A stretch of DNA of 31,755 nucleotides from a virus: IMG/VR virus record IMGVR_UViG_3300034375_001290, positions 1 to 31,755 of that record; one strand, 5' to 3'. Position 1 is the stretch's first letter. Each line of letters begins with the position of its first letter. The notes under the pieces were generated by a model, which searched no databases, was not told where the DNA came from, and saw only the letters and a program-made list of their open reading frames with translations. Positions 12,390 through 20,273 of the stretch are shown one piece after another. A program made the translations under genes and the position numbers.

Positions 12390-14009
12390 ATGGCAACTCC
12401 AGTTTTAAACAATGGTATCTTTCTACGGGATACAGCGTACAACGCAAGCTCACACGTAGACTCTTACCACTTGGTTAACATGTTAAAGGATGCAGAACCA
12501 ATGGACCTTGGTCCAGTAGATCTTTGGGCTATGGCTCAAAAGGTGGAAATGCCCCTTTATCAAATGTCTAGCTTTGGTGGTAAAAATGTAATTGAAGTAG
12601 ATAATGCTCGTGGAGAGTACAAGTGGCAAACACCTGTATCTAGAGATCTTCCTTATATTATTGAGGATATTGATCCATCTTTAGGTGATACAAGAGGTGC
12701 TGATGGTAACACTTTCCGCATTAAGTTAAGCTGCAGAGAATTTGGACATGGTGATATCATTACCTATGACAAATACAATGGTGCTGAACTTTATGTTACT
12801 GATGAGGATATTCTTCCTGTAGGTGATGGGTTTATCTATACAGTGCAGATGGTTAATAATAACAATACTGCAACTTTTGATTCACGTTTCTTAGCTAATG
12901 GAACTAAGTACTTTAGAAAAGGTTCTGCTAGAGGAGAATACGGTGAAAGATTTTCTGATATTACAACTGGAACTGGTTTCCGTGAATTCTACAACTATGT
13001 AGGAGGTGCTGAAGCTCATGTTCATTACTCTATCTCTTCTCGTGCAGACTTGATGATCAAAGGAGGAATGAATGCAGATGGTACAGTTCCTGTAACTGAG
13101 ATCTGGAGAGCATCAGGAGATGCTATGAATCCTTCTGTAGCTTCATTAGAAGATATGGTTAAAGTAATGGGTAAAGATAAAGTAAAGAGAGCTTTTGATA
13201 ACGGTGATCTTTCTAGATCTTTCCTTACTCAAATGGAAGCTGCTCACTTGACTAAGATTGCTAATGACATTGAGTCTTACCTAATGTGGGGACAAGGTGG
13301 TAGAGTTAGACAAGATGGTCCAGATGATTTAAGACTTTCTGTAGGTCTTTGGCAACAGCTTGACAACTCTTTCAAAAGAGTATACAACAAAAATAACTTT
13401 AACTTAGACTTATTTAGATCTGAAATCTATAACTTCTTTAATGGTAAAGTTGAGTTTAAAGGACCAGATCCACAAAGACAGTTGATTGTTCAAACTGGTA
13501 TGGGTGGTATGAGAATGGTAAACGAAGCTATTAAAAGAGAAGCTGTAGCATCAGGTCTTGTAATTCAAGCTGCTGATATAGGTGCAATCACTGGTCAAGG
13601 AATGGACTTGAACTTTGGATTTGCTTATACTAGCTACGTTATTCCTTTCCTTGCTAATGTTAAGTTTGTACTTAACCCAGCATTTGATAACGTTAATACA
13701 AATGATATTGAGAACCCAATCATTGATGGATTCCCATTATCTTCTTACTCATTCATTATCTTTGACATCACTGATAATACTAATGATAACATCTTCTTGT
13801 TGAAGTTATCTTGGGATAATCAATTGAAGTGGTGGTATCAAAATGGTACTATGGACTATATGGGTCGTAGCCAAGGATTCCAGTCTTCTGGACAATTTAA
13901 TGGATACCGAGTAATGATGTCTCAAACAATGCCTGCAATTTGGGTTAAAGATCCAACTAAGGTATTGAAGATTGTTATGAGAAACCCAGTTACTGGCGGA
14001 TCATTCTAA
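12390..14009 (+). CDS. Major capsid protein (HK97 fold, crAss-like)
   Basis: A 539-residue protein in the portal, scaffold, capsid order, with the composition of a major capsid protein: few Cys, many Gly/Asn/Asp/Phe, evenly mixed alpha and beta. Segments such as MLKDAEPMDLGPVDLWAMAQ (residues 31-50), the long spine-like helix around 285-300 (LTQMEAAHLTKIANDIESYL) and the beta-rich C-terminal half fit crAss-like capsid proteins, which have the HK97 fold. Codon use differs from its neighbours: many C-ending codons (TTC, TAC, AAC, GAC), as expected for a very highly expressed gene. It has an A-rich leader and is followed 18 bases later by the strongest terminator in the window. I see no removable delta domain. 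Confidence 0.88.
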   Translation: MATPVLNNGIFLRDTAYNASSHVDSYHLVNMLKDAEPMDLGPVDLWAMAQKVEMPLYQMSSFGGKNVIEVDNARGEYKWQTPVSRDLPYIIEDIDPSLGDTRGADGNTFRIKLSCREFGHGDIITYDKYNGAELYVTDEDILPVGDGFIYTVQMVNNNNTATFDSRFLANGTKYFRKGSARGEYGERFSDITTGTGFREFYNYVGGAEAHVHYSISSRADLMIKGGMNADGTVPVTEIWRASGDAMNPSVASLEDMVKVMGKDKVKRAFDNGDLSRSFLTQMEAAHLTKIANDIESYLMWGQGGRVRQDGPDDLRLSVGLWQQLDNSFKRVYNKNNFNLDLFRSEIYNFFNGKVEFKGPDPQRQLIVQTGMGGMRMVNEAIKREAVASGLVIQAADIGAITGQGMDLNFGFAYTSYVIPFLANVKFVLNPAFDNVNTNDIENPIIDGFPLSSYSFIIFDITDNTNDNIFLLKLSWDNQLKWWYQNGTMDYMGRSQGFQSSGQFNGYRVMMSQTMPAIWVKDPTKVLKIVMRNPVTGGSF

Positions 14010-14091: not shown

Positions 14092-15111
14092 ATGGAAAAA
14101 GAAAACTTTACAATGGTGGAAACACCAGTAATGAACAGACAGTCTAAAATTAGTATTAGACCTTACTTCGATGCAAGAAGAGAAAATATGGGTCTTGAAA
14201 ATTATGGACTAAGCTTATTTGATGGAATTAAACATCAAGAGCAATTAGCTTGTCTAGAGATTAATGGAATCAATAGATATCTTACAGGATTAAATGAATT
14301 TGCTCCTGAAATTAAAAAGTTATCTAATGAAGCTAGAGAAGCTAAAGTAAAGCAGATCAGAACAGCAGTAGCTGATTTAGAAGCAGAATTAGCTTCTAAT
14401 ATTATAGATCCAGAAGATAAAGACTTTTGGAATAAGGTTAAGTTACTAAAGCCTGATAATGCTGCCTTCTGGAATAAGATTGATATTAAAGTAGGAAACG
14501 AGCCTATCTTTTTAAATATGAATGATCCTTATGACAGAATTAAATTATATGCAATTGAAGCAGGAGGTTTCTCTTTAATTGCAAAGAGTTATGATGATGC
14601 AAAAGCAAAACCAAAAGCTCCTAAGTTTTATTTAGATAAAGAAGAAGTTACTGTATCTAGTAGAACTGAGTACAAAAAACTTAGAAACAAAGCACTATCA
14701 GAACTACAAAAATTGTTTGATAAAAATAGTACTAAACTATTCTATGTAGCAAAAGTTGTAGATGCTAGTAGTACACAATATAAAAAGTCCACTCCTTTGG
14801 ATATTCTATATGAAAATATGGATATGCATATTCATGGGGATGGCGCAGAAAGTAACATGGAAAGAGCTGTTAAATCATTTATAGAAGCTGTTGATTGTGA
14901 TATGGAAACATTGAAGATCAGAAGTATTGTAAAAGATTCAGCATTCTTTAAATATATTGTTACTAAAAGTGATGGACATATTTATCATAATAAGAAGAAT
15001 GTTCTACTTGGAAGAAATGTTTCTGATGTAGTAGAATATTTGAAGAATCCTCTTAATGAAGATATCTTAGATGATTTAACTAAGTCCTGCGAAACATATT
15101 GGAGAAGTTAA
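14092..15111 (+). CDS. Hypothetical protein downstream of major capsid gene
   Basis: A 339-residue mixed alpha/beta, Lys-rich protein with no membrane segment or signal. A helical N-terminal half (EIKKLSNEAREAKVKQIRT, about 74-92) is followed by a mixed middle (IKLYAIEAGGFSLIAKSYDD, about 150-169) and a C-terminal helical part that ends in CETYWRS. No catalytic motif was found. It is expressed from the far side of a strong terminator and has the same leader as the spacer gene. Its position next to the capsid gene suggests a minor head or head-assembly protein; this is inference only. Confidence 0.6.
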   Translation: MEKENFTMVETPVMNRQSKISIRPYFDARRENMGLENYGLSLFDGIKHQEQLACLEINGINRYLTGLNEFAPEIKKLSNEAREAKVKQIRTAVADLEAELASNIIDPEDKDFWNKVKLLKPDNAAFWNKIDIKVGNEPIFLNMNDPYDRIKLYAIEAGGFSLIAKSYDDAKAKPKAPKFYLDKEEVTVSSRTEYKKLRNKALSELQKLFDKNSTKLFYVAKVVDASSTQYKKSTPLDILYENMDMHIHGDGAESNMERAVKSFIEAVDCDMETLKIRSIVKDSAFFKYIVTKSDGHIYHNKKNVLLGRNVSDVVEYLKNPLNEDILDDLTKSCETYWRS

Positions 15112-15129: not shown

Positions 15130-15351
15130 ATGGCAAGATGTATGAAATGTGGTGGAAATCACAACTATCAAAAAGGAGGATCATCATTTCCTGATCTTAC
15201 AGGGGATGGTAAAGTAACTTACGCTGATATTTTAAAAGGCAGAGGTGCATTTAAAAGAAATGGCGGATCAAGTTTAGAAACTGGTATGATGAAGTATGGA
15301 GGATCTTGCGGTAAAAAAATGAAGTATAATAGAACAAATAAATCTTTTTAA
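15130..15351 (+). CDS. Small Gly/Lys-rich protein with EF-hand/dockerin-like Ca-binding loop
   Basis: A 73-residue protein. It begins with a CxxCGGNH motif (RCMKCGGNH), so it may hold a metal, and then carries FPDLTGDGKVTYADILKGRG (residues 21-40), which fits the calcium loop of EF-hand/dockerin type (D-x-T-x-D-G-x-V-x-x-x-D) followed by a short helix. The rest is basic with repeated GG (RNGGSS, MKYGGSCGKK). Similar small proteins with this loop and Lys/Gly-rich flanks are familiar from aquatic phages, with unknown function. It is the first of a run of small basic genes. Confidence 0.6.
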   Translation: MARCMKCGGNHNYQKGGSSFPDLTGDGKVTYADILKGRGAFKRNGGSSLETGMMKYGGSCGKKMKYNRTNKSF

Positions 15352-15353
15352 TC

Positions 15354-15593
15354 ATGGCAAATAATAAAATGATGTACAGTAAAGGCGGACCTGCCAAAAT
15401 GAAAATGGGTGGTAAAGTAATGCCAATGTATACAAACAATCCTAATTCTATTCAAGGAAGAATACTTATGAATGGTGGTATGGTAAATTCAGCTATGTCT
15501 GCTGGAGTACTAAAAGGTGATAAAATGATGAAAGGTGGAGAATATAGAAGAGGGGGAGTTATGAAAACCATGAAGAAGAGTTCTTATAAATGA
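15354..15593 (+). CDS. Small Met/Gly/Lys-rich protein
   Basis: A 79-residue protein of very low complexity: many Met, Gly and Lys in short GG units (YSKGGPAKMKMGGKVMPMY, MNGGMVNSAMSAG, MMKGGEYRRGGVMKTMKKSS). It is strongly basic, with no Cys and probably disordered. Such M/G/K-rich short proteins recur in Bacteroidota and marine phages, and I know of no function. Its stop overlaps the next start by ATGA. Together with its neighbours it could bind DNA by charge. Confidence 0.6.
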   Translation: MANNKMMYSKGGPAKMKMGGKVMPMYTNNPNSIQGRILMNGGMVNSAMSAGVLKGDKMMKGGEYRRGGVMKTMKKSSYK

Positions 15594-15817
15594 TAAAAAT
15601 AACTAACATGAATAAGAAAGAAATGAGGCAGTTTGAAATACAATCTGCAATGAGTACTTTAAGGAGAGCTGAAGAAATAAAAAAAGATTCTAAGTTAATG
15701 GCTGATGTAAAAAAAGCTGCTATGGAAGAAGTTAAAAATCTTCAATCTTTAGCTGGAGGTTCCTCAACTCCAGCTAAAAGAACTCTACCAAGAAGAAGAA
15801 CTCTTAAACGTAAATAA
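15590..15817 (+). CDS. Small helical basic protein
   Basis: A 75-residue protein with one long amphipathic helix (about 8-53, including MRQFEIQSAMSTLRRAEEIK and DVKKAAMEEVKNLQSLAGG) and an Arg/Lys/Pro tail (PAKRTLPRRRTLKRK). The start at 15590 gives an ATGA overlap with the upstream gene; the ATG at 15608 would give a 69-residue form and cannot be excluded. The basic tail suggests nucleic acid contact. Family not recognised. Confidence 0.55.
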   Translation: MIKITNMNKKEMRQFEIQSAMSTLRRAEEIKKDSKLMADVKKAAMEEVKNLQSLAGGSSTPAKRTLPRRRTLKRK

Positions 15818-15828
15818 ATTTTAAAGTT

Positions 15829-16116
15829 ATGGCTTATAAAAAACAAGATGGTCCTATAAAAGATCTTATAAAACAATATAGAGAAACTGTTCCTACTGTT
15901 ACTAAAGCAATTTTTGCAGCAGGTGCAGATGCTTTAGGAAATACGGTTCTTAACAAGTCTATACAAAATATTAGACAAATTAATAAGATTAGAAAAGCTA
16001 ATCCAGGTATGAGTTTTAAAGAGGCTAGAGAAGAAAAACAGAAAAAAGAAAACAATCCTTTGGGTGAAAACAAAATGGGTGGTTCTTGGACTAGATCATC
16101 TAGAATGACAAAATAA
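15829..16116 (+). CDS. Small basic protein with MGGSW tail
   Basis: A 95-residue protein, mostly helical, with a mildly hydrophobic Ala-rich stretch (TVTKAIFAAGADALGNTVLN, about 22-41), then a Lys/Arg/Glu-rich region (SFKEAREEKQKKEN) and the end KMGGSWTRSSRMTK. The Lys/Met/Gly-Gly theme links it with its neighbours. No function is recognised; the hydrophobic stretch is too weak to be called a membrane helix. Confidence 0.55.
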   Translation: MAYKKQDGPIKDLIKQYRETVPTVTKAIFAAGADALGNTVLNKSIQNIRQINKIRKANPGMSFKEAREEKQKKENNPLGENKMGGSWTRSSRMTK

Positions 16117-16122
16117 TAAGTT

Positions 16123-16314
16123 ATGCCTAATACTACAAATCCTACAAAAGTTTTAAAGTTCTTTAGAGATGCTAATCTAGAAAGAATGAAAAAAGGTGGA
16201 ACTAAAAAAGATGCTTGTTATCATAAGGCTAAAGCTAAATATGCAGTTTTTCCTTCAGCTTATGCTAGTGGATATATTGCAAAATGTAGAAAACGTAGAG
16301 GAAAAATTAAGTAA
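16123..16314 (+). CDS. Small basic protein with DACYxKxKxxYxVFPSAYASG motif
   Basis: A 63-residue basic protein. Its core DACYHKAKAKYAVFPSAYAS (residues 29-48) followed by GYIAKCRKRR is a signature I recognise from many aquatic phages and some giant viruses, often in capsid neighbourhoods. The two Cys (C31 and C55) flank the core. The function of the family is unknown to me; charge and context suggest nucleic acid binding or virion association. The stop shares its last base with the next ATG (TAATG). Confidence 0.62.
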   Translation: MPNTTNPTKVLKFFRDANLERMKKGGTKKDACYHKAKAKYAVFPSAYASGYIAKCRKRRGKIK

Positions 16315-16571
16315 TGGCAGTTAGAAAAACAGCTAAAGGTCTTGCACTTAAAAGGTGGTTTAAAGAAGAATGGAAGGATGAAAAAGGAAATCCTTGTGGT
16401 TCTGACAAAAATAAAAAAACTAAAAAGTGTAGACCAACTAAAAAGGTTTCAAAAAAGACTCCTAGAACTTGGGGGTCTTTATCTAAATCTCAAAAGGCTG
16501 CTGCTGTTAGAGAAAAGAAACAAGTAGGTATGGGTAGAAGAACAAGTTCAATTAAAAAAAGAAAAAAATAA
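16314..16571 (+). CDS. Small Lys-rich protein, WFKEEW...PCG...KCRPTKKVSKKTP type
   Basis: An 85-residue protein with about a third Lys/Arg. Order of motifs: ALKRWFKEEWKDEKGNPCG (about 10-28), KKCRPTKKVSKKTPRTW (37-53), LSKSQKAAAVREKKQ (56-70), then a basic tail. This pattern belongs to a short virus protein family that I believe is listed as DUF5872, but I could not verify the number. It has two Cys. Function unknown; very high charge argues for a DNA-associated or virion-internal protein. It is followed without a gap by the 16572 gene. Confidence 0.62.
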   Translation: MAVRKTAKGLALKRWFKEEWKDEKGNPCGSDKNKKTKKCRPTKKVSKKTPRTWGSLSKSQKAAAVREKKQVGMGRRTSSIKKRKK

Positions 16572-16709
16572 ATGGCAACGACTAAAAAATTTAAAGCTCA
16601 TCCAATGTACAGTAAGTCAGGTAAAATGATCATGGCTAAAAGTATGAAGGATCATTTAAGTTTGAAAGCAAAAGGTTATTCTCATACTAAACCTAAAAAG
16701 AAAAAGTAA
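16572..16709 (+). CDS. 45-residue basic protein, HPMYSKSGKMIMAKSMKDHL type
   Basis: A short gene easily missed: ATG at 16572 directly after the TAA at 16569-16571, stop TAA at 16707-16709 overlapping the next ATG. The 45-residue product reads MATTKKFKAHPMY, SKSGKMIMAKSMKDHLSLKA, KGYSHTKPKKKK. The pattern MY...GK...A...HL.L...GYSHTKPKKK is familiar from small proteins of aquatic phages. The tight stop/start joins on both sides and the lysine tail like that of its neighbours support it as real. Confidence 0.68.
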   Translation: MATTKKFKAHPMYSKSGKMIMAKSMKDHLSLKAKGYSHTKPKKKK

Positions 16710-16990
16710 TGGCTACTGCTAAGAAAAAAAGTCCTGCTTGGACTAGGAAAGAAGGTAAAAGTAAATCTGGTGGTTTAAATGCTAAAGGAAGAGCCTCTTA
16801 TAGAAAAGCTAATCCTGGTAGTAAATTAGCAGCACCAGTTACTGAAAAAGATCCTAAAGGTAAAAGAGCTAAAAGAAAGAAATCTTTTTGTGCTAGAATG
16901 AAAGGCATGAAGAAAAAAATGACAGGATCTAAAAAAGCAAATGATCCTAACTCAAGAATTAACAAGTCTCTTAGAAAGTGGAATTGTTAA
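16709..16990 (+). CDS. Small Lys-rich protein, GGLNAKGRASY...SFCARMKGM...LRKWNC type
   Basis: A 93-residue, very basic protein with a clear family signature: SGGLNAKGRASYRKANPGS (about 20-38), LAAPVTEKDPKGKRAKRKKS (40-59), FCARMKGMKKKMTGS (60-74) and the end INKSLRKWNC. I recognise this arrangement from phage, giant virus and environmental sequences; I believe it is DUF6321, unverified. Two Cys. Nothing is known to me of its role; it may bind DNA or the capsid interior. Its start overlaps the upstream stop (TAATG), and it ends just before a promoter-like motif. Confidence 0.65.
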   Translation: MATAKKKSPAWTRKEGKSKSGGLNAKGRASYRKANPGSKLAAPVTEKDPKGKRAKRKKSFCARMKGMKKKMTGSKKANDPNSRINKSLRKWNC

Positions 16991-16993
16991 TTT

Positions 16994-17006
16994 TTTTGTA
17001 TATTAT
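16994..17006 (+). promoter_or_regulatory. Promoter-like motif inside the small basic gene cluster
   Basis: TTTTGTATATTAT, a copy of the repeated motif, in the 90-base gap between 16990 and 17081. It would drive the genes from 17081 onward. Its distance to the tiny ORF at 17012 is only 5 bases. Confidence 0.5.
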
Positions 17007-17011
17007 AATAT

Positions 17012-17077
17012 ATGAACAAATTTTATAAAGAACCAGAAGAAGAAACTGATCAAATTTTTATCTACTGGGAATATTAA
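17012..17077 (+). CDS. Possible 21-residue acidic peptide
   Basis: ATG at 17012 to TAA at 17077 encodes MNKFYKEPEEETDQIFIYWE plus a final Tyr. It is acidic and aromatic, unlike the Lys-rich proteins around it. It fills the gap and stops 3 bases before the next ATG, a spacing typical of real genes here. Against it: its start lies almost inside the promoter-like motif, so it could be translated only from an upstream transcript or a leaderless one. Low confidence. Confidence 0.3.
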   Translation: MNKFYKEPEEETDQIFIYWEY

Positions 17078-17080
17078 AAA

Positions 17081-17284
17081 ATGGCAACCAAGAAATTAAA
17101 TATTAAAAAGGCAATTAAGAAACCAGGTTCTCTTACAGCAACAGCAAAGAGACAAGGTGGATATGATACCAAAAATAAAAGAATTAAAAAATCTTGGTTA
17201 AGAGAAAAAGCAAAAGGTTCAGGCAAAACTGCTCAACGTGCAAGGTTTGCAATTACATTAGGTAAACTAAGAAAAAAGAAATAA
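17081..17284 (+). CDS. Small Lys-rich protein, SWLREKAKGSGKTAQRARFA type
   Basis: A 67-residue, strongly basic protein: KKAIKKPGSLTATAKRQGGY (about 10-29), then IKKSWLREKAKGSGKTAQRA (36-55) RFAITLGKLRKKK. The pairing KPGxLTxTAK plus KAKGSGKTAQRARFAxTLGK is a signature I know from aquatic phages and virus-like metagenomic sequences. It contains a GSGKT string, but this is not a P-loop NTPase: the protein is far too short and lacks any other motif. It may be a histone-like or DNA-neutralising protein (inference). Next gene starts 1 base after its stop. Confidence 0.62.
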   Translation: MATKKLNIKKAIKKPGSLTATAKRQGGYDTKNKRIKKSWLREKAKGSGKTAQRARFAITLGKLRKKK

Positions 17285-17285
17285 A

Positions 17286-17630
17286 ATGAAAAATAAGAAA
17301 ATACACCCTGTAGAATTTTTTAATAATAATAGAGCTATGGCAAAAGCTAAAGCTATAAAGGAAATGAAAAAATTTAAAAAGAGTTTAGTTAAAGCTCAAG
17401 AAGGAATTAGTACAGATAGTACAAAGATTTATAATCAATGGGCTAAAGAAGATGCTATTTTGTCTAAAGAGTTTGAAAATAAAGGTGATAAAAAAGGTGC
17501 TAATATGGCTATGGATGTTATGATGTATCACCTAGATGCTGCCGATAGACAAAAAAATAAAGGTAAAGCAGGTTTTGATAAATATGGATTTCCGCTTTCC
17601 AAAAAGAAAAACTGGTGGGATAAATACTAA
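17286..17630 (+). CDS. Hypothetical basic protein with SLVKAQEG motif
   Basis: A 114-residue protein with a Lys-rich helical N-terminus (AMAKAKAIKEMKKFKK, about 17-32), then SLVKAQEG (33-40), and a helical, mixed-charge C-terminal part ending in KYGFPLSKKKNWWDKY. SLVKAQEG matches SLPKAQLG at nearly the same position in the protein at 2284, although the two are otherwise unlike. This could be a processing or virion-targeting signal. No family is recognised. Confidence 0.55.
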   Translation: MKNKKIHPVEFFNNNRAMAKAKAIKEMKKFKKSLVKAQEGISTDSTKIYNQWAKEDAILSKEFENKGDKKGANMAMDVMMYHLDAADRQKNKGKAGFDKYGFPLSKKKNWWDKY

Positions 17631-17645: not shown

Positions 17646-18344
17646 ATGCTTAATAGTACAATTGTTATAAAGCTGAAACAAAGATTAAATAAACTTGATA
17701 GTCAAGACTATGATAATATAGAATGCTGGCAAGTTGTTGAAGCTTTTAATAAAGCACAAGTAGAATGGTGTAGAAGACAATTGCACGGGCTTAATGTTGT
17801 ACAAGAAGGTGATGAACAATCTACTAGAAGAAAAGATGACCTTCAAACTTTGTTAACTACGGAACAAATAAATGTAACAGATAAAAAGTATTACTTCTTT
17901 GGTGCTATTCCAGAAGACTATTTACAATGGAAGAGAGTTGATGTATTAGCTTGTAAAGACTGTTGTGAAGATAGAAGAATGACTGTATACTTAGCAGAAG
18001 AAGGTAACTTAAATCAATTACTCAGAGACAAATCAAAAAAACCAAGCTTTGAATGGGCAGAAACATTTGCTACCTTAATTGATGATAAAGTACATATTTA
18101 TACTAATGATGAATTTGAAATTGGAGAAGCTAGTCTAATATATTATAGACAACCAAGAAAGATACAAATTCAGGGATGTGTTGATCCATATACAGAAGTT
18201 CAATCATTAGTAGAAGTAGAGTCTGAATTTAAAGATGATATTATAGAACTAATAATAGATGAAGCAGTAAGTATAATTGGAGGAGATATAGAAGCTCCTG
18301 TACAATATCCAAGAGGTACACAAGGTGCTGAAAGAAACAACTAA
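17646..18344 (+). CDS. Putative head-tail connector/ring-type structural protein
   Basis: A 232-residue protein. The N-terminal part is helical (about 1-45) and ends in VEWCRRQLHG; the centre is beta-rich with four Cys (LACKDCCEDRR, and one in IQGCVDPYTE). The C-terminal part holds LIYYRQPRKIQIQGCVDPYT (about 160-179) followed by DDIIELIIDEAVSIIGGDIE (about 197-216), an end pattern I associate with structural connector proteins of Bacteroidota phages. It has no signal or TM segment. In crAss-like phages several ring proteins stack below the portal, and this could be one of them. The next gene starts 2 bases after its stop. Confidence 0.5.
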   Translation: MLNSTIVIKLKQRLNKLDSQDYDNIECWQVVEAFNKAQVEWCRRQLHGLNVVQEGDEQSTRRKDDLQTLLTTEQINVTDKKYYFFGAIPEDYLQWKRVDVLACKDCCEDRRMTVYLAEEGNLNQLLRDKSKKPSFEWAETFATLIDDKVHIYTNDEFEIGEASLIYYRQPRKIQIQGCVDPYTEVQSLVEVESEFKDDIIELIIDEAVSIIGGDIEAPVQYPRGTQGAERNN

Positions 18345-18346
18345 TT

Positions 18347-18841
18347 ATGGAAACAAGATCTAGACTTTTAAAAAGAAATCCAGAAACTACTAAAACTATT
18401 AGTAGACCAAGAGAAGAAGTAAAAGCTGAACCAACTAAAGATACAGGAGTTGGTGGAAGTTCATTAGATAACATGGTATCATCATGTGTATCTGAGCTTA
18501 TGAATGCTGCAACTAGCTTTCATAAACTACATTTAAAAGTTAAAGGTGAAGGTTCTTATGCAGCGCATAAAGCTTTAAATGAATTATATGATGCTCTACC
18601 AGGTCATGCAGATACACTTGCAGAAGGATATCAAGGAGTAGCAGAAAAGATTTTAGGTTACAAAGAAGTAAGTTGTAGAACATTAGATACAGTATCAGAT
18701 GGTGTTTCTTACTTAAGAGACTTATATGGAATGGTTAATAAACTACAAGGTATGTTACCATATTCTGAAATAGTAAACAATTTAGATCTAGTAAAAGATA
18801 TAATTAATTCTACTAAGTATAAATTACTTTTCTTGAAATAA
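18347..18841 (+). CDS. Dps/ferritin-like protein with intact ferroxidase ligand spacing
   Basis: A 164-residue protein. Residues 1-38 are a basic, probably disordered tail; the rest is predicted as a four-helix bundle. FHKLHLKVKGEGSYAAHKAL (59-78) and ALPGHADTLAEGYQG (83-97) align with the Dps segments HWxVKGxxFxxxH and HxDxxAE. H62, H74, D89 and E93 have spacings 12, 15 and 4, the same as the ferroxidase residues of E. coli Dps (H51, H63, D78, E82). The end STKYKLLFLK resembles the last helix of Dps (DKxLWFLExH). Dps proteins oxidise and store iron and shield DNA. Pfam has a phage family I recall as DUF5856 that may include it; unverified. Whether it forms 12-mers, sits in the virion or acts in the cell is unknown. 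It is the last gene before the next promoter-like motif. Confidence 0.68.
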   Translation: METRSRLLKRNPETTKTISRPREEVKAEPTKDTGVGGSSLDNMVSSCVSELMNAATSFHKLHLKVKGEGSYAAHKALNELYDALPGHADTLAEGYQGVAEKILGYKEVSCRTLDTVSDGVSYLRDLYGMVNKLQGMLPYSEIVNNLDLVKDIINSTKYKLLFLK

Positions 18842-18908: not shown

Positions 18909-20273
18909 ATGGCTTATTTTAATCACGCTTTTAGAAAGACATTTGTAATGTCTGACTATGTGGCTCCAGCAAGTGCTACCACTACAGGAGCTTTAACAGC
19001 AGGACAGTTGTCGCTTTTTAATGCACAGACTTTTGCTCCTTCTGATGTAGCAACACCAGAGTGTTGTCAATTTTTAGTTGTATCTGGATCTCCTTATACA
19101 AATGATAGAGTTGGACCTTTTCACGGAGGATACCAAGAATCTATTAAATCAAAAGGAATCAATCCAAGATATGTAACTAAAGTATGGGATGGTTTGGCAC
19201 ATGCTGCTCAAAACTCTATTCTTCATATTGGTACTACAGCTTGGACTGTAGCTAATCCACCTGCAGAAGGAGATTGCTGCCCAACTTTCCTTTGTGGTGA
19301 GAACTATCACTTAAGAGTTGATGTTAAAGGTTCTCCAGCATTGAGAATGTTAAATCACCAAGGATATGTAGAAGTTACTGCATATGGTGGTTGTTGTCCT
19401 GATCAACCAGATGATCCACTTATTGCTCCAGTAGAAGTAGATCCAGCATCTATCATGATTCAATGGGCTACTGGTATTTGGGAAAGTGTAGTTGTTACAG
19501 GTAATGGTCCTAACGGAAGAATTAATCCTGCTCCACTACTTATTCCAGTTGTATCATTTGCAACTGCAGGTGTAGTAGATGCATTATATTATCCTCCAGG
19601 AACTGATGCTGCTGTATTGGCTGCTGCCGCAATTCAATATCCTGCATATACTATTGATACTTGGGATAACTATGTATCTACATGGGTTCTTGGAAACGGA
19701 GACTGTGCAGGTTTATCTTTAATTGGTGCATATGAAGAAACTAGATTTGGAGATTGTACTTTCCAACCTTCTGACTTCTATGAAACTGAGCCAGTAAGAA
19801 TTTATGCTTCTGAAGTAGATTTAACTGGTTCTCCTTGTGAATTTACAGGAATCTGTATTGCTCATGAGTGTGAAGGAAGAAAAGCAAATGGTCTTGGAGA
19901 AACTGCTGCAAGAGACTTTATCTTGTCAGAATCTTACAGACAAAATCATTTTGCTTCTGACTTAAGAATTCGTGAAATTACTCAAGGTAATGACATGTTA
20001 GGTACAGGTGCTGGTCAAATTGACAGAAATGGACTGTATGATAGACTAATGGTTTTACATAGTGTACCACGATTCAATAACCCTTCTGGAACATTTGATA
20101 ATGATCAATACTTAATTGAAGTTCTTACTCCTATTGCTCTTAGAGCTACAGAAAGAGCTGCTTTAGTTAAGGACTTACAAAGAATCTTGGATGCATGTGG
20201 AAACCCATGCTACCAGCAAGCTGCTGAAGATGCAGATGCTTGTCCTACTCCAAGTATTCCAGTTACAGCGTAA
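18909..20273 (+). CDS. Probable abundant virion structural protein
   Basis: A 454-residue protein with its own promoter-like motif and terminator and many C-ending codons like the major capsid gene, all signs of high expression. The sequence is beta-rich: residues 1-60 look like an arm (YFNHAFRKTFVMSDYVAPAS). The middle has Cys pairs (GDCCPTFLCG, GGCCPDQPDD), then TIDTWDNYVSTWVLGNGDC, and the C-terminal part contains YLIEVLTPIALRATERAALV. At least fourteen Cys for a virion protein is high. No specific fold is recognised. Candidates are an auxiliary capsid protein, a head decoration protein or a tail component; the position between the connector and fibre genes does not decide among them. Confidence 0.55.
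   Translation: MAYFNHAFRKTFVMSDYVAPASATTTGALTAGQLSLFNAQTFAPSDVATPECCQFLVVSGSPYTNDRVGPFHGGYQESIKSKGINPRYVTKVWDGLAHAAQNSILHIGTTAWTVANPPAEGDCCPTFLCGENYHLRVDVKGSPALRMLNHQGYVEVTAYGGCCPDQPDDPLIAPVEVDPASIMIQWATGIWESVVVTGNGPNGRINPAPLLIPVVSFATAGVVDALYYPPGTDAAVLAAAAIQYPAYTIDTWDNYVSTWVLGNGDCAGLSLIGAYEETRFGDCTFQPSDFYETEPVRIYASEVDLTGSPCEFTGICIAHECEGRKANGLGETAARDFILSESYRQNHFASDLRIREITQGNDMLGTGAGQIDRNGLYDRLMVLHSVPRFNNPSGTFDNDQYLIEVLTPIALRATERAALVKDLQRILDACGNPCYQQAAEDADACPTPSIPVTA

Follow-up and report, generated by a model that had tools for sequence, protein, structure and literature searches.

The gene at positions 18347..18841 (+ strand) of a crAss-like phage fragment encodes a protein of 164 aa (ATG start) that is, as judged from its sequence and modelled structure, a phage miniferritin of the DUF5856 / PHROG 858 family. 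The fragment, called the window here, is the whole stretch of 31,755 nt that was analysed (IMG/VR record IMGVR_UViG_3300034375_001290). Its crAss-like assignment comes from the capsid protein, which matches the Crassvirus capsid family, and from the adjoining portal and terminase genes. The predicted fold, the sequence match and the ligand pattern agree on a Dps-type identity of the protein. We believe that it is probably made late in infection, when it would oxidise and store Fe(II) and limit Fenton damage to phage DNA.

An earlier, sequence-only reading of this DNA had called the protein Dps-like and pointed to the Dps/ferritin and DUF5856 profiles for comparison. It is DUF5856 that responds above its cut-off (PF19174, E=9.8e-14, 52.6 bits, curated cut-off 34.6), together with phrog_858 (E=5.2e-21), a family labelled 'starvation-inducible transcriptional regulator' in PHROGs. 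The ferritin model PF00210 scores 14.9, under its cut-off of 24.5, and the NCBIfam Dps model NF006975 scores 18.2, far under its cut-off of 114. The best PDB sequence match by phmmer is nevertheless a Dps (1n1q, E=4.4e-4). All of the residues that are invariant throughout DUF5856 are present: the HxxH, the following H, D and E, an Asp of helix D and the C-terminal YxL. By tblastn, the whole protein matches 371 phage records at E<=0.01, and the core alone 1,076 phage records at E<=1, the weaker of which are individually non-significant. The matches include Kutterviruses, Methylophilaceae phage P19250A and T4-type phages, whose copy is rI.-1 and adjoins rI. Pfam confirms DUF5856 in RI.-1 of the T4-type phages RB49 and RB51, in CBA120 orf108 and in P19250A. 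In the T4-type loci L084 (2456-2854) and L086 (2438-2824), RI.-1, besides belonging to DUF5856, has all four Dps ferroxidase ligands.

The candidate ferroxidase site was followed in 60 distinct close homologues and in 146 distinct sequences in ten 50%-identity clusters. The latter set ranges from the crAss-like lineage of the window through to T4-type RI.-1, its distant members having been gathered by two single-sequence searches. The codons H59 to H62, an HxxH with H62 as the first ligand, lie at 18521..18532 (+), the codon of H74, the second ligand, at 18566..18568 (+), and the codons D89 to E93, which include the third and fourth ligands, at 18611..18625 (+). H62, H74, D89 and E93 are each present in 146/146 sequences, and H59 in 145/146. 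The earlier reading had noticed that the four ligands are spaced as H51, H63, D78 and E82 of E. coli Dps and had picked out the strings HLKVKG and HADTLAE; both observations proved correct and in place. Nor do the ligands vary freely, being constant in the close set as well as in the wide one. In the close set both synonymous codons are used for each ligand while the residue stays the same, and in DUF5856 as a whole the four ligands are among the very few invariant positions. Because all four are kept in 146 of 146 distinct homologues from ten clusters, an active ferroxidase site is likely on sequence grounds.

The spacing pattern itself is specific. H-x11-H-x14-D-x3-E occurs once in the 58,899 six-frame residues of the window. 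In the 530,420 residues of the collected loci it occurs 90 times, always in Dps/DUF5856 proteins; 81 of these carry the crAss-lineage signature and the other 9 are also relatives. Chance resemblance is ruled out by the single occurrence in the window and by the invariance of the ligands across clusters. An artefactual reading frame is ruled out as well, since 60 distinct close homologues conserve it and vary synonymously in the ligand codons.

The structure was predicted with AlphaFold2 as a single chain from 25 aligned sequences (model m14b05fbac1e6). The model has helices at residues 39-64, 70-94, 116-136 and 141-161, plus a short helix at 98-103. It is confident over residues 37-164, with pLDDT of about 74-94 per ten-residue block. 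The core (residues 39-164; 18461..18841, +) is thus predicted to fold into a Dps-type four-helix bundle whose last helix (141-161) is well placed, as had been expected from the sequence. Foldseek finds Dps proteins as best matches (E 1.9e-3). By structural alignment (VIA) the model fits 8hwz, the Dps2 of M. smegmatis (MsDps2), over 127 residues at 2.6 A with Z 14.8, and Dps proteins are in the majority among the top 50 chains. As helical bundles can reach Z 13 by chance, the fold match is no proof by itself. In the model H74, D89 and E93 lie on one continuous helix (70-94), about 28 A separating H74 from E93 along it. A single chain therefore cannot close the site, and a di-metal site would need two chains, as in Dps.

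The way in which such a protein could work can be outlined as follows. Two subunits related by a two-fold axis would share the di-iron site, one contributing H62 and H74, the other D89 and E93. The assembled cage, probably Dps-like, would bind Fe(II), oxidise it with H2O2 or O2 and store the ferric iron. Late timing of the gene is suggested by the structural genes of crAss001, which are transcribed late (PMC10136315). Transcription together with the virion genes would then mean less Fenton chemistry while the phage genome is replicated and packaged. A minority of the miniferritin may travel in the virion. Our literature search found no biochemistry of any DUF5856 protein.

The protein departs from bacterial Dps in several respects. 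It resembles E. coli Dps, M. smegmatis Dps2 and B. brevis Dps in fold (Z about 13-15) and in ligand positions and spacing. In contrast to them, it scores below cut-off with the PF00210 and NCBIfam models, has Leu (L63) in place of the Trp that follows the first His in Dps (HW), and has a shorter B-C region. The segment that runs from the last ligand to the end of the protein is 71 residues long; in a phage protein that does fit the Dps/ferritin models it measures 78. With a B-C region this short, assembly into a dodecamer is not certain. Within DUF5856 / PHROG 858, T4-type RI.-1 included, members have in common the H-H-D-E ligands, the HxxH, the helix-D Asp and the C-terminal YxL. The crAss lineage differs from the other members in keeping the Dps spacing of 12 residues between H62 and H74 and in adding an N-terminal tail of 23-49 residues. 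The spacing is 9 in most other members, whose A-B turn is three residues shorter.

The gene lies inside the structural block, directly 3' of a connector-type protein, as the sequence-only reading had placed it. The upstream neighbour (17646..18344, +; 232 aa) is predicted to have the fold of a tail-barrel ring protein. Its model (m821dc489c694) matches the phicrAss001 tail barrel both by Foldseek (7qoj_D, E=1.7e-10) and by VIA (7qoj_E, Z 15.0, 207 residues), and its sequence matches phrog_29507, a virion structural protein family (E=2.4e-12). The downstream neighbour (18909..20273, +; 454 aa) has no Pfam or PHROG match but is conserved next to the Dps-like gene. Profile searches of these two neighbours against PDB sequences returned nothing credible, the ring protein having been identified by fold search. 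The Dps-like gene is found between the ring gene and the 454-aa gene in 82/82 loci with a detected neighbour. It seems to be missing from two more distant phages: in the records of Leptolyngbya phage Lbo-JY46 and Cellulophaga phage phi17:2 the counterpart of the ring gene is followed by the next large gene with no gene shown in between. A search with the family profile of the structural regions fetched for Lbo-JY46, phi17:2 and cr106_1 found no relative. The empty place and the missing relative in Lbo-JY46 and phi17:2 suggest that the gene was gained in the lineage of the window or lost in theirs.

The same neighbourhood holds nine consecutive small lysine/arginine-rich proteins (15130-17630 of the window; net charge +10 to +27), lying between a capsid-adjacent gene (14092-15111) and the ring gene. 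One of them (16709-16990) is DUF6321. In related loci the nine are variably detected and their order is partly different.

The fixed place beside a tail-barrel gene makes one ask whether the protein is a component of the virion, packaged or attached at the tail/portal region with its N-terminal RxLKR tail as an anchor, where it would protect the genome or be delivered with it. We regard this as possible but on the unlikely side. Besides the position in 82 of 82 loci, it draws on a relative within the structural block of the gut crassvirus cr108_1, and on two detections of Dps-family proteins, one by mass spectrometry alongside purified virions of the Proteus phage Privateer (PMC7881722), the other in proteomic data on phage SU10 (PMC4281155). 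The SU10 data, however, include DNA polymerase and further non-structural proteins (PMC4281155), so contamination is possible. Some phage 'prohead protease' proteins also have a region of the same fold. Three such long proteins are in BFVD (A0A6J7WPK9, A0A6J7XDU5 and A0A6J7WIS1), which suggests that a Dps-like domain and a capsid-maturation protein have become fused in nature. Against a virion role, the literature search turned up no report of a DUF5856 protein in a virion, a Crassvirales review is silent on Dps and ferritin, as is the phicrAss001 structure paper on iron. Given that Dps proteins of other phages have turned up in virion preparations, carriage of the 164-aa protein is plausible by analogy. 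If it is a structural protein, it could also have kept the fold and lost the chemistry. The location in the structural block, the loss of the HW tryptophan and the short B-C region would suit such an iron-independent protein; the family-wide invariance of the four ligands, at a time when very few other positions are invariant, makes it very improbable. A different role altogether is offered by T4, in which case DUF5856 proteins would modulate lysis, as has been reported of T4 RI.-1, with iron binding secondary or serving as a sensor. The family member adjoins rI in T4-type phages, overexpression of RI.-1 slightly prolonged lysis inhibition (PMC6832632), and the DUF5856 gene of P19250A abuts an annotated holin gene with one shared base (L083:3929-4770). 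But the T4 effect was slight and came from overexpression (PMC6832632), RaK2 has an RI.-1 homologue without RI or T (PMC3622015), and in the lineage of the window the gene is grouped with tail genes; in the window itself the amidase gene is 16 kb distant. We consider a lysis-timing role improbable.

The tail bears on both DNA binding and anchoring. Residues 1-38 (18347..18460, +) begin with RxLKR and are predicted to be disordered, pLDDT being below 50 for residues 1-36. The earlier reading had described a basic tail of 38 residues resembling that of Dps. Net positive it is, but the description was overstated: 9 basic residues are offset by 6 acidic ones, leaving a net charge of only +3, and the length is not fixed. 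In the 60 close homologues the tails run from 23 to 49 residues with a mean net charge of +2.95, nearly all of them keeping an RxLKR-like start. The tail may bind DNA; equally, the conserved start could be an anchor. A protein that compacts phage or host DNA through this tail, as E. coli Dps does, would fit the conserved RxLKR, the positive charge and the disorder. The 6 acidic residues, a core of net charge -2, a twofold variation in tail length and the minimal or missing tail of remote family members (CBA120 orf108, for example) speak against it, and we give such a nucleoid-type role only a small chance. The late-made miniferritin remains our preferred reading. A more ambitious version would have the protein as the virion miniferritin of an environmental crAss-like lineage, anchored by RxLKR near the tail barrel and accompanying the genome, by ejection or carriage, to counter iron-peroxide damage, and at the same time would make DUF5856, T4 RI.-1 included, a phage-specific ferroxidase family. 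We find this combined claim doubtful.

A Dps-like protein in a phage is a known kind of finding, and databases already give the family Dps-flavoured names. Such proteins have been published (PMC8008677, PMC6669764, PMC7881722, PMC4281155), and these precedents, with more than 1,000 phage records at E<=1, make the protein less exceptional than the earlier reading took it to be. The true phage Dps proteins of phrog_3636 (Streptomyces phage Stigma gp17 and, by BLAST similarity, those of Kuravirus and Privateer) likewise belong to the ferritin superfamily and to tailed phages, and some of this type are found with virions (PMC7881722, PMC4281155). Unlike the 164-aa protein, Stigma gp17 scores 57.6 bits with PF00210 and has phrog_3636 as its best match. 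The Dps gene of SU10 is a middle gene (PMC4281155), whereas the gene here is in the structural block. The available part of one report describes DPS-like proteins in phages including those of gut Bacteroidetes: the Gratiaviridae and Flandersviridae have DPS-family enzymes, proposed to act against oxidative stress, which we liken to ours by description; the same part reports neither a link to DUF5856 nor a position in the structural module (PMC8008677).

A parallel in position is found in cr108_1 (Crassvirales, Steigviridae), whose QOR58977.1, a 'DNA-binding protein' (L193:10839-11222), matches phrog_858 at E=4e-8 with ligands H-9-H-15-D-4-E and sits in the structural block between the capsid and HU/IHF genes. 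It differs in having no tail, 127 aa, the HW kept, a DUF5856 score of 32.7 that is just below cut-off, and other immediate neighbours. As a single sequence against the close alignment it gives a weak match in hhalign; PHROG 858 and the family profile do find it. The association with the structural block is thus seen in two crAss-like lineages.

DUF5856 is catalogued without a known function, and its PHROGs label is that of a transcriptional regulator. The invariant ligands give it a concrete activity to test. T4 RI.-1, whose one reported link is to a slight effect on lysis inhibition (PMC6832632), can be tested as a miniferritin because of the invariant site. Of all the results, the most useful is this proposed miniferritin role, open to testing throughout a widespread phage family that includes T4 RI.-1. 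The literature search found no paper on DUF5856, none that names a phage-encoded miniferritin and none joining rI.-1 with Dps; most subscription papers were outside its scope. Were the protein a virion component, it would equip crAss-like particles with an enzyme that detoxifies iron. If it is not, its presence still suggests that many kinds of phage gain from encoding iron control during infection.

Two further observations concern relatives of the window. The contig RFPL01000035.1 (L082), assigned to a Sphingomonadaceae MAG, has the same order of ring, Dps-like and downstream genes and looks like a phage contig placed in a bacterial bin. The nearest annotated match of the capsid protein (12390-14009) in the phage collection is that of the cyanobacterial Leptolyngbya phage Lbo-JY46, at 28% identity, which suggests that crAss-like phages extend beyond Bacteroidota.
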